Below, piece after piece: positions 33,077 through 36,177 of a stretch of 64,000 nucleotides of DNA (within the stretch, counting starts at the first letter, position 1; each line of letters opens with the position of its first letter). This DNA is from Jingyaoa shaoxingensis (GTDB lineage: Bacteria > Bacillota > Clostridia > Lachnospirales > Lachnospiraceae), in the NCBI RefSeq assembly GCF_014385005.1, contig NZ_JACRSZ010000003.1, forward strand, positions 124,001 to 188,000, written 5' to 3'. The notes under the pieces are model-generated. The model made no database searches and was not told the origin of the DNA. It saw nothing but the letters and a program-made list of their open reading frames with translations. The position numbers and the translations under genes were made by a program.

Positions 33077-33105
33077 TTGCATCTTTCCAGAAATAATGCT
33101 ACACT
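33077..33105 (+). promoter_or_regulatory. Candidate promoter for structured element A and tmcAL
   Basis: TTGCAT at 33077-33082 and TACACT at 33100-33105 with a 17-bp spacer. Predicted transcription would begin about 33112, ten bases before the first helix of element A, so the RNA would form the 5' leader of tmcAL. Confidence 0.5.
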
Positions 33106-33121
33106 TTCAAAGAATTTGAAT

Positions 33122-33298
33122 ATATCAGATGTGAGATGACTCCCACCTTTTTAGGTGGCGAAGAGCAAATTAGTATCAGTGGTGGGAGTCAATCCCCCAT
33201 CTGATATAGCCTCCGGCAGGATTGCAGAGATGCGCAAAAGAAATATGTCATGCTTTGCATGACGCGCATCTCGCAGCAAGAATGCCGAGGCATTCTTG
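33122..33298 (+). ncRNA. Structured RNA element, copy A (upstream of tmcAL)
   Basis: About 177 nt, almost entirely base-paired. P1: 33122-33131 with 33198-33207 (10 bp). P2: GACTCCCACC 33138-33147 with GGTGGGAGTC 33181-33190; an alternative small hairpin pairs CCACC with GGTGG at 33154-33158. P3: 33227-33235 with 33264-33272, and inner GTCATGC/GCATGAC 33247-33253 with 33257-33263. P4: CAAGAA/TTCTTG 33277-33282 with 33293-33298. A pseudoknot can join CGGCA 33214-33218 to TGCCG 33283-33287 in the P4 loop. Copy B keeps the architecture with different paired bases. The strand is inferred from the promoter and tmcAL orientation. It could be a regulatory leader, or a non-autonomous mobile RNA element such as the HEARO/OMEGA kind; neither is proven. 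Confidence 0.65.
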
Positions 33299-33312
33299 AA
33301 TATGGAGGTTAT

Positions 33313-34581
33313 ATGAAAACAGCAGGGATTATTGCGGAATACAATCCATTTCACAACGGACATGCTTATCAGATTGAAGAGGTACGTCGACAGACTGGCG
33401 CTGATTATGTAATTATCGTCATGAGCGGAGATTTCGTCCAGCGGGGAGAACCTTCCATTGTGGACAAATATCTGCGTACCCGCATGGCGCTGGAGGGCGG
33501 CGCAGATATTGTTCTGGAGCTTCCTGTTCTGTTTGCCTGCGCAGGAGCTGAATATTTCGCCAGAGGCGGTGTCTCCATTTTAAACAGCTTGGGATGCGTA
33601 GATACTCTGTGTTTTGGTACAGAACAGAAGGATCTTTCTGATTTTGAACCTGCAGCCGATCTTCTGACAGAAGAGCCGCCTGCTTACCGACAGTGTCTTG
33701 CTTCTTATCTGAGGGAAGGAATGGGCTATCCCACTGCCAGATCTGCGGCACTTTCTGACTGTCTGGATACCGATATTTCTTTTCTGCGCAAACCGAATAA
33801 TATCCTTGCTCTGGAATATCTCTGTGCACTGAAACGTCTGGGCAGTTCCATTACTCCCTTATCCATACAACGTGTAGGTTCTGGATATCACGACCACTGC
33901 CTGACAGGGCAGTTCGCCTCTGCCACCGCCATCCGTAATTCTTTATTTGAAAGAAACACAGGATTTCAGGAATCTCTGGTATCTGATACCCTGCATGGAT
34001 ATATGCCCGAATCGGCTATTGTACTTTTAAAAAAGCATTTTGATGCCTACGGTCCGCTTTGTATACAAAACTTTTCTTCTATATTGCAGTACCGTCTCCT
34101 TACCATACAGTCGCCAGAAGAACTTTCTTCCTACTTTGATATCGACAGTTTTCTGGCAAACCGGATATTCCAGAACCGTTTTGCTTTTTCCTCTTTTTCT
34201 GACTTTACAGAACTGCTTACATCGAAAAACATGACTCGCGGACATATCCAGCGGGCACTTTTTCATATTCTTCTAAATCTCTCAGAGCCCGAAGGAACCG
34301 CCATGTTTTTTCCTCAGTACACGCGTATCCTTGGTATGAAGCGGGAATCTTCCGGTATTCTGAAATGTATGAAAAACAGTTCATCAATCCCGTTTCTGAC
34401 AAAAATGGCAGATGCTTTTAAAGTGATCGACGCTTCCACACTGTCAGAAGGCCAGAAAAAAGCCGCCTGCTGTCAGCTTCAGCAGACAACCTTTTCTTCT
34501 CATGTTTATGAATCAGTTCTATCCCAAAAATACAATACGATTTTCCGCCATGAAAATACCCGCCAGATTGTGATCCTGTAA
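33313..34581 (+). CDS. tmcAL: tRNA(Met) cytidine acetate ligase TmcAL
   Basis: Forms N4-acetylcytidine at the wobble position of elongator tRNA-Met from acetate and ATP. The nucleotidyltransferase-like N-terminus has the HxGH-type motif in IIAEYNPFHNGHAYQIEE, then VIIVMSGDFVQRGEP and DKYLRTRMALEGGADIVLELP, all diagnostic. Length 422 is normal. The frame is open upstream through element A, but the ATG at 33313 has GGAGG at 33303-33307. It is one of few plus-strand genes here and is flanked on both sides, in the same orientation, by copies of a structured RNA element. Confidence 0.93.
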   Translation: MKTAGIIAEYNPFHNGHAYQIEEVRRQTGADYVIIVMSGDFVQRGEPSIVDKYLRTRMALEGGADIVLELPVLFACAGAEYFARGGVSILNSLGCVDTLCFGTEQKDLSDFEPAADLLTEEPPAYRQCLASYLREGMGYPTARSAALSDCLDTDISFLRKPNNILALEYLCALKRLGSSITPLSIQRVGSGYHDHCLTGQFASATAIRNSLFERNTGFQESLVSDTLHGYMPESAIVLLKKHFDAYGPLCIQNFSSILQYRLLTIQSPEELSSYFDIDSFLANRIFQNRFAFSSFSDFTELLTSKNMTRGHIQRALFHILLNLSEPEGTAMFFPQYTRILGMKRESSGILKCMKNSSSIPFLTKMADAFKVIDASTLSEGQKKAACCQLQQTTFSSHVYESVLSQKYNTIFRHENTRQIVIL

Positions 34582-34603
34582 TCACATCTGACGGGTTCTT
34601 TTT
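34559..34603 (+). terminator. Intrinsic terminator overlapping the end of tmcAL
   Basis: A long stem (CCCG and CAGAT...GTGAT pairing with ATCACA and TCTGACGGG, one mismatch and one bulge) spans the tmcAL stop and is followed by TTCTTTTT. It ends right where element B begins. Confidence 0.8.
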
Positions 34604-34781
34604 ATCTCAGTCGAGAAGACTCCCACCTCTTTCAGGTGGTGAGTAATAACAATTTGTCTCAGTGGGAGTCCAATCTCCGACTGAGATAAACGCTCCGCGA
34701 GGATGCGCAGTGATTCTGTAAAGAATGTGTCAGCTTACGCTGACCAGAATCACGCGCCAAGTCTCGCGGATGCTCGACTTG
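34602..34781 (+). ncRNA. Structured RNA element, copy B (downstream of tmcAL)
   Basis: Second copy, about 180 nt. P1: 34602-34613 with 34678-34689 (12 bp, perfect). P2: GACTCCCAC 34618-34626 with GTGGGAGTC 34662-34670, with an ACCT/AGGT mini-hairpin inside. P3: GTGATTCTG 34710-34718 with CAGAATCAC 34745-34753, inner GTCAGC/GCTGAC 34729-34734 with 34739-34744. P4: CAAGTC 34758-34763 with GACTTG 34776-34781. Pseudoknot: CCGCGA 34695-34700 with TCGCGG 34764-34769. P1, P3, P4 and the pseudoknot differ in bases from copy A yet stay paired. P2 and its loop are the most conserved sequence. It lies after the tmcAL terminator and before the PFL gene's 3' end; no own promoter was found. Confidence 0.65.
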
Positions 34782-34800
34782 AATTTATCGTAATAAGTAC

Positions 34801-36177
34801 TTAATTCTTAAAGCTGTGGATCGGTGCCGGAATTCTTCCGCCTCTGTTTACAAAATCAGCACAGGAGAACTTGTTCACCGGCATGATCGGTGCATATCCA
34901 AGGAGTCCGCCAAATTCTACGATCTCTCCCACACCTTTTCCGATGACCGGAATCACTCTGACTGCAGTTGTTTTCTGGTTCACCATACCGATTGCCATCT
35001 CATCTGCGATAATACCGGAAATCGTCGTCGCCGGTGTATCTCCCGGAATTGCGATCATGTCCAGACCTACAGAGCAGACACAGGTCATGGCTTCCAGCTT
35101 TTCAATGGTCAGTGCGCCTGCCTGTACAGAATCAATCATTCCCTGATCTTCGCTGACCGGAATAAAGGCACCGCTTAATCCACCTACGTAAGAAGATGCC
35201 ATAACGCCGCCCTTCTTTACCTGGTCATTTAACAGTGCAAGGGCTGCTGTGGTTCCAGGCGCTCCGGCATATTCCAGGCCGATTTCGCAGAGGATATCTG
35301 CCACGCTGTCTCCAATTGCCGGAGTCGGTGCCAGAGACAGGTCAATAATGCCAAATGGGATATTCATTCTTCTGGAGGCTTCCTGCGCTACCAGCTGTCC
35401 CACACGGGTTACCTTAAATGCGGTCTTCTTAATGGTCTCACATAATACTTCAAAATTCTCGCCTCTTACTTTCTCCAGAGCACGTTTTACCACTCCAGGA
35501 CCGCTGACGCCTACATTAATGACTGCATCTCCTTCCGTTACACCATGGAAAGCGCCTGCCATAAATGGGTTGTCATCCGGAGCATTGCAGAATACTACAA
35601 GCTTGGCACATCCAAGAGAATCGTTCTCTTTTGTCAGTTCTGCTGTCTCAAGAATCATATCACCCAAGAGACGTACTGCATCCATATCAATACCGGTCTT
35701 GGTAGAACCCACATTCACTGAACTGCATACACGCTCTGTCTGTGCCAGAGCCTGTGGAATGGAACGAATCAAATATTCATCACTCTGGGTCATCCCCTTA
35801 CTGACCAGTGCAGAATAACCACCGATGAAGTTCACGCCCACTTTCTTGGCAGCCTTATCCAGTGTTCTGGCAATCGTCACATAATCCTCTGGCTTTTTAC
35901 ATGCACTGGATCCCACCAATGCAATCGGTGTCACAGAAATACGCTTGTTTACAATCGGAATACCATATTCATTCTCAATTGCTTCTCCTGTGGAAACCAG
36001 ATTCTCAGCCAGAGTCGTAATCTTGTTGTAAATGTTTCGGTTCAATACATCCAGATCTGCATCGATGCAGTCCAGAAGACTGATGCCCAGGGTAATGGTA
36101 CGGACATCCAGATTTTCTTCGGATATCATTTTATTTGTTTCGCTGACTTCAAATATATTAATCATTCCGTTCTCCAC
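34801..36177 (-). CDS. PFL family protein (DUF711, UPF0210)
   Basis: A 458-residue cytoplasmic protein of the DUF711/PFL family. Its fold is distantly related to glycyl-radical (pyruvate formate-lyase-like) barrels, but it has no glycyl radical motif. Conserved family stretches are [48 protein letters not shown] and [19 protein letters not shown]. It always travels with a small ACT-domain gene, here 5 bp upstream. Function is unknown in the literature I know; the ACT partner suggests control by an amino acid. Confidence 0.9.

Follow-up and report, generated by a model that had tools for sequence, protein, structure and literature searches.

Results

Two copies of a folded element flank tmcAL

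In the window, which is the whole stretch of 64,000 nt that was analysed, a gene for a protein of 422 aa, for which we keep the name tmcAL given by the earlier note, lies between two copies, A and B, of a non-coding element, both on the + strand and both with the helices P1, P2, P3 and P4. The features are given below, with scores from R1, a covariance model based on alignment A3, which comprises 15 sequences sharing one P1 type.

33121..33125, +, TATAT, the target pentamer of copy A, presumably host DNA, given its TATAT guide class and a sister insertion with empty sites in the same genome
33126..33300, +, copy A of the element (type A), 175 nt, starting with C and ending with CTTGAA (R1 match 33122-33300, 143.8 bits)
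33138..33190, +, P2 of copy A, GACTCCCACC / GGTGGGAGTC
33140-33158, +, alternative short hairpin from the P2 5' arm of copy A, resembling IS605 left-end hairpins
33204..33208, +, guide ATATA of copy A, complement of the TATAT target and outer part of the P1 3' arm (33198-33208)
33211..33222, +, conserved core CTCCGGCAGGAT of copy A, from the sequence and the family alignment
33223..33275, +, P3 of copy A, with an apical hairpin at 33247-33263
33277..33298, +, terminal hairpin P4 of copy A, CAAGAATGCC / GGCATTCTTG, after which the element ends with AA (helix 5 of the covariation test)
33313..34581, +, tmcAL, between the copies and outside the element (Pfam HIGH_NTase1, 4.5e-128)
34601..34605, +, TTTAT, the target pentamer of copy B, within the T-rich run that follows a hairpin, recognised by eye, at the end of tmcAL
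34606..34783, +, copy B of the element (type B), 178 nt, starting with CTCAGTCG and ending with GACTTGAA (R1 match 34602-34783, 105.8 bits)
34618..34670, +, P2 of copy B, with CCACCT/AGGTGG as short-hairpin alternative
34686..34690, +, guide ATAAA of copy B, complement of the TTTAT target
34691..34704, +, conserved core CGCTCCGCGAGGAT of copy B, with TCCGCGAG as an 8-nt complement to part of P4
34705..34757, +, P3 of copy B, with an apical hairpin at 34729-34744
34758..34781, +, terminal hairpin P4 of copy B, CAAGTC / GACTTG, followed by AA (helix 5 of the covariation test)
34801-36177, opposite strand, DUF711 gene (PF05167), just past copy B

The earlier note had described two such same-strand copies with P1 to P4, and these are present in the sequence. 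Its boundaries (33122-33298 and 34602-34781) pointed to the right place, but the mobile units, the ends of which were set by comparing empty and filled sites of sister copies, are 33126-33300 and 34606-34783; likewise its P1 helix exists, but the outer 5 nt of the 5' arm (33121-33125 and 34601-34605) are target DNA. A + strand promoter that it had placed at 33077-33105 was not recovered by a consensus promoter scan. It could match the element to no known family by eye, and in line with this an Rfam search with both copies, at the gathering cut-off and at E values up to 10, returned nothing relevant. The R1 scan found no further copies in the window, its two other matches lying in the palindromic P1/P2 regions, read from the opposite strand.

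Copy A ends 3 nt ahead of the likely ribosome-binding site (GGAGGT) of tmcAL, the closest proteins to which are five at 85-97% identity. Copy B follows the hairpin at the end of tmcAL, which the terminator scan does not list.

The helices covary

Both copies fold better than dinucleotide shuffles (z -8.60 for A and -9.96 for B; none of 200 shuffles equally good), with the P4 stretch partly paired with the core instead in the single-sequence fold of copy A and paired otherwise in that of copy B. RNAalifold on a MAFFT alignment of all types gave 12 pairs only, because P1 was misaligned, and was therefore replaced by a subset alignment with a hand-drawn structure. Across 80 aligned family members, fitted to the model and including 18 rows that are wrong-strand, partial or odd and were later dropped, 51 of 54 pairs changed on both sides, and the 690 double-changed cells observed exceed the 163.5 of shuffles and the 83 to 116 of slid controls. 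After these 18 rows had been removed and the other 62 thinned to the 38 below 88% identity, at least two Watson-Crick types were found for 16/16 pairs of P1, 6/9 of P2, 16/17 of P3 including its apical hairpin, and 10/10 of P4.

The compensatory change that the earlier note had seen between two copies extends over the aligned members of the family. Its conclusion, that such change speaks for an RNA and against DNA, fails nonetheless: covariation does not single out RNA, because elements of the IS200/IS605 type act as folded single-stranded DNA, for which the same covariation is expected. The pseudoknot between core and P4 that it had proposed (CGGCA with TGCCG of P4 in copy A, an option that we base on the family-level test) is possible. 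Among 48 distinct core/P4 pairs out of 61 rows (one more row was left out) the mean longest complement was 4.81 nt, compared to 4.09 after shuffling, with none of 1000 shuffles as high. Judged by these complements, the pseudoknot is favoured on average across the family but not in every member, several short forms having 3-nt core/P4 complements only.

A dispersed family with long and short forms

When a pattern derived from P2 was scanned over the genome collection, at least 120 loci were obtained, which among the matches listed belong mostly to Lachnospiraceae or to the genera Blautia, Coprococcus, Anaerobutyricum and Hespellia; five of the loci (L006, L021, L104, L108 and L109) look like chance. 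R1 matched all 14 genomes that had been picked for holding pattern matches, with 2 to 96 matches per genome, counts that may include partial and opposite-strand matches. Of 120 genomes drawn from the family to which G001 belongs (a Coprococcus comes genome, itself counted; we take the family to be Lachnospiraceae), 24 were positive, as were at least two of 398 genomes of the phylum (one of them G001), the large searches scoring few candidates per genome and losing weak matches. The pattern scan gave no match in viral contigs, and a distant blastn search with copy B gave none in plasmids and phages.

Unit sizes range from about 110 to 190 nt across the family, too short to code for a transposase. 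Long forms of about 175-190 nt consist of P1, P2, P3 with its apical hairpin and P4, whereas P2 is missing from the short forms (about 127 and 111 nt), which are likewise numerous; in G002, 11 matches to the 127-nt form were listed, three of which were read. Many copies lie at contig ends. One copy resides inside the P2 loop of another (L192:135-311), and near 3240-3450 of L007 a copy is either nested in a P2 loop or a partial copy lies beside a full one. One subfamily (L274-L284 and L304-L311, in G025 and G116) has the right end CTTGAC in place of CTTGAA and the target TTTAA; the P2 loop of this subfamily, AAGCGTTAGC, is similar to the hairpin at the right end of an IS605 in L196.

The element moves and inserts precisely

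In G005, two IS605 copies (L387/L388) carry the 127-nt form of the element inside tnpA at TATAT^C, whereas the tnpA copies of L368 and L396 in the same genome read through. As two interrupted IS605 copies are present, the interrupted IS itself probably multiplied with the help of TnpA made by other copies. That the element forms the right end of a tnpA had been considered for this arrangement and was ruled out in favour of an insertion into tnpA. In Blautia, L025 and L049 become as long as the sites of their relatives, L253 and L254, once the stretch that begins with C and finishes with GAA is taken out, with insertion after TTTAT and TATAT, respectively; in both cases the sister pentamer differs from that of the filled site, so that only the length is demonstrated there. 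The host origin of the pentamer is proven for TATAT only, by the empty sites in the same genome. No empty site was found for TTTAA insertions, and none was obtained for the copies of G016, the genus of which is represented by 2 genomes.

No target duplication was detected among 87 copies, the best z of 3.1 in 180 tests not being taken as real. Insertion is thus precise, 3' of a host pentamer and with neither duplication nor loss of target DNA. By eye the ends, C(TC/TT/AG).. and ..CTTGAA, form no terminal inverted repeats, and palindromes, namely P1 and P4, lie close to both termini. Copies A and B beside tmcAL go back to two separate insertions and differ in their guides.

In Blautia glucerasea, a type-B copy likewise lies upstream of a tmcAL homologue (L012; G002:C109:102754-102936), which is probably a coincidence. 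A conserved position ahead of tmcAL was not found at this site, where three of three aligned Blautia relatives lack the element, the intergenic DNA being too diverged to place the junction; in G353 two flank matches about 200 bases apart are consistent with a shared insertion.

Guides follow targets

The complementarity between target and P1 3' arm seen in the window (TATAT with ATATA in copy A, TTTAT with ATAAA in copy B) follows the subfamilies. In a table of three guide classes, comprising 114 of 177 rows matched by a regular expression (the remainder being other guides and some chance matches), 57 of 81 copies with a TTTAT guide were at TTTAT, the other 24 being at other pentamers, while 15 of 20 with a TATAT guide were at TATAT and 10 of 13 with a TTTAA guide at TTTAA; a crossing between guide and target class occurred once among the 114 copies. 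Exact matches amounted to 72%, with a permutation expectation of 39% and a permutation maximum of 51%, values which, like the Fisher tests below, overstate independence because the copies share descent. From these counts, the landing site seems to be picked by base pairing with the internal guide.

Within a single subfamily of 48 copies, seven are at TTCAT, and directly 5' of the hairpin foot six of these seven, compared to one of the 41 others, have ATGA instead of ATAA (Fisher p 4e-6, with the reservation just made). This suggests that the effective guide of this subfamily sits where IS608 has its own. The P1 3' arm complement follows TTCAT in 2/7 of these copies as opposed to 0/41 (Fisher 0.019, read likewise). 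In types A and B we saw by eye no guide copy beside P2, the complement being present only in P1.

In G016 (L293-L297), G123 (L290-L292) and G094 (L312-L315), the P1 arms of the copies differ strongly, or at the guide, and are still self-complementary, while by eye the other parts are much more alike.

Strand and flanks

Mispairs in P2-P4 are mostly G-T (35, compared to 10 A-C), as if it were the + strand that folds. The bias is reversed in P1, with 8 G-T and 25 A-C, 13 of the latter falling in two of 16 pairs. Around 110 copies, flanking frames (called mechanically at >=90 aa, some copies having no frame on one side) run in the same or the opposite direction as the element in 68 and 33 cases downstream, and in 61 and 38 cases upstream. 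The P2-P4 mispairs and the frame orientation would fit a top strand that lies on the lagging-strand template; an RNA is compatible with both as well. Within the 40 nt to the left of the element, 11 of 68 copies have a strong predicted hairpin (MFE -14 or lower); the same was seen for 4 of the 68 right flanks and for 10 of 680 windows at a distance.

Comparison with IS605, TnpA and TnpB

A left-end hairpin, CTCCCACC..GGTGGTGAG, is common to the element and to left ends of IS605 in the same genomes; the likeness covers 28 positions (nhmmer E 0.0026 for L196), and by eye both the P2a hairpin of the element and the IS605 hairpin have an extra base on the 3' side. The 127- and 111-nt forms, in which this hairpin is missing, have spread, so that it is not needed. 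For the right end of the element, no counterpart was found in any IS605 recovered here.

When R1 was run over 48 loci, nearly all around TnpA/TnpB matches, element ends were seen only in L200, which is a truncated ordinary copy, and a search with the right end alone returned the known copies L387/L388, L393-L395, L167 and L200 and nothing new; in the open frames surrounding L393-L395, no transposase was recognised by eye. No autonomous partner with matching ends was found among the TnpA and TnpB loci searched.

Of the 26 genomes with the element, 19 had a Y1_Tnp match; among 28 others (19 of them listed without an element match, 9 absent from that listing), 18 had one, so that Y1_Tnp is not associated with the element. 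No Y1_Tnp match was obtained in G008, G014, G016, G025, G080, G100 and G128, at least some of which are metagenome bins. Longer Y1-like frames (about 235-310 aa) with a RAYT-like look occur in G098, G071, G049, G123, G024 and G039, and also in the element-negative genomes G018 and G029.

PF07282 (TnpB) was detected in four of seven carriers (G007, G008, G012 and G013) and not found in G002, G006 and G014. At a contig end, G006 has the N-terminus of a TnpB (HTH_OrfB_IS605, E 6e-23). A frame in G002 resembles by eye the neighbour of tnpA in L198 and has no Pfam match. No TnpB gene was recognised beside an element copy.

Discussion

The element of the tmcAL locus is mobile and in all likelihood not a regulator of tmcAL. 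From our point of view, each copy is probably a non-autonomous member of the IS200/IS605 type of transposons, namely a palindrome-associated transposable element (PATE). One strand would fold into P1-P4, probably while single-stranded on the lagging-strand template, and a Y1 (HUH) TnpA, provided in trans, would bind one of the subterminal hairpins; its cuts would fall, on the left, 3' of the T-rich host pentamer and, on the right, at the end CTTGAA. The folded strand would then insert 3' of a new pentamer picked by pairing with the guide ATAAA, ATATA or TTAAA. Analogy and the target statistics support this putative mechanism, but not the enzyme. In outline, this agrees with one of the possibilities raised in the earlier note, a non-autonomous mobile element derived from IS200/IS605; the HEARO/OMEGA version of that proposal gained no support, with no Rfam match and no TnpB gene recognised beside a copy.

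The element could instead be mobilised by another enzyme or through an RNA intermediate, for example by a reverse transcriptase acting in trans, with the guide pairing in the manner of group II exon-binding sites. Such a route, which we regard as improbable, would account for the strong RNA-like covariation and for the missing association with a Y1 transposase; the strong hairpins in 11 of 68 left flanks would fit it as well, since group IIC introns insert directly after terminator hairpins. However, no group II-like ends were seen by eye, the guide beside the hairpin foot is IS608-like, and terminator tails are good T-rich targets, so that a T-rich target alone can explain the left-flank hairpins. 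The pseudoknotted, covarying fold and the TnpB that several carriers contain (G007, G008, G012 and G013, and its N-terminus in G006) could also be taken to indicate a standalone functional RNA, an OMEGA-like guide RNA or another ncRNA, spread by duplication. We consider this quite improbable, as no Rfam match was obtained, no TnpB gene was recognised beside a copy and the copies are inserted exactly, one of them interrupting a gene.

A role as cis-regulator of tmcAL, which had been another suggestion of the earlier note, is extremely improbable. It could draw on the position of copy A 3 nt ahead of the likely ribosome-binding site and on the Blautia copy (L012) that is also upstream of a tmcAL homologue, but that site is empty in three of three aligned relatives, members of the family lie at many unrelated loci, one of them interrupting the tnpA of an IS605, and in 33 of 101 scorable copies the downstream frame is opposite to the element. 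With tens of copies in some genomes, two beside tmcAL need no special role.

Returning to the IS200/IS605-type transposon, one could speculate that it rewrites its own guide from the landing site, so that the copy gains a new target preference. This would proceed by insertion at an imperfect pentamer followed by template switching in the P1 hairpin, by which the inner arm becomes the complement of the new flank, and it would explain the differing and yet self-complementary P1 arms in G016, G123 and G094. We consider such rewriting conceivable but unlikely; if true, the element would be a naturally self-retargeting, guide-programmed DNA transposon.

To our knowledge, most of what is known about guide-directed targeting by IS200/IS605 elements comes from model elements and from engineering. 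The present family is a natural one, in which a genome can contain up to dozens of copies. As it comprises several guides and, for these, several targets that match, the pairing between guide and target is open to study by comparison alone. It further provides a warning that strong covariation and a pseudoknot can mark folded transposon DNA, so that surveys for RNA motifs may report elements of this kind as ncRNAs. In addition, unmasked copies may confuse the assembly and annotation of these gut genomes. In a search of open-licence PMC papers, no such element of Lachnospiraceae was found.

Like the HEARO/OMEGA RNAs, which are structured and associated with mobility, the element combines a fold with movement, but it has neither an Rfam match nor a recognised nuclease gene beside its copies. 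With the REP/REPIN sequences moved by RAYT (TnpAREP), it shares an intergenic location, a high copy number and hairpins, which in REP/REPIN are recognised as single-stranded DNA (PMC6006769); in contrast, it is much longer, a GTAG/GTGG tag was not noticed by eye and no RAYT is linked to it.

IS608 inserts its top strand, on the lagging strand, 3' of a tetranucleotide and has its guide 5' to a hairpin foot, as described in PMC5934647 and PMC6006769, and guide-directed targeting has been treated for such model elements and in engineering (PMC5934647). The exact insertion 3' of a T-rich oligonucleotide that is kept on the left and the guide 5' of a hairpin are common to our element and to IS608/ISDra2 (PMC5934647). 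Unlike those, it has no tnpA or tnpB inside, it uses the pentamers TTTAT, TATAT and TTTAA, and in most copies a hairpin lies between target and guide.

The element also resembles the PATEs, defined as too short for a transposase, with near-terminal palindromes related to IS605 and with neither terminal inverted repeats nor target duplication (PMC3119063), of which examples of the IS200/IS605 type are known from Haloquadratum and Halanaerobium (PMC3119063, PMC7290912). The element fits this definition in size, palindromes, ends and target, and may do so in its kinship to IS605, of which it shares the left-end hairpin while its right end matches none found here; its fold is unusually elaborate. 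As in the PATEs of both papers, it is non-coding and multicopy, has palindromes near its ends and makes no target duplication, and there too internal deletions between direct repeats occur and some shortened forms may still spread (PMC3119063, PMC7290912). It differs in that, apart from one hairpin, its ends have no counterpart in the IS605 copies found here, that it has four covarying helices and a possible pseudoknot, and that its guides vary between subfamilies, tracking their targets.
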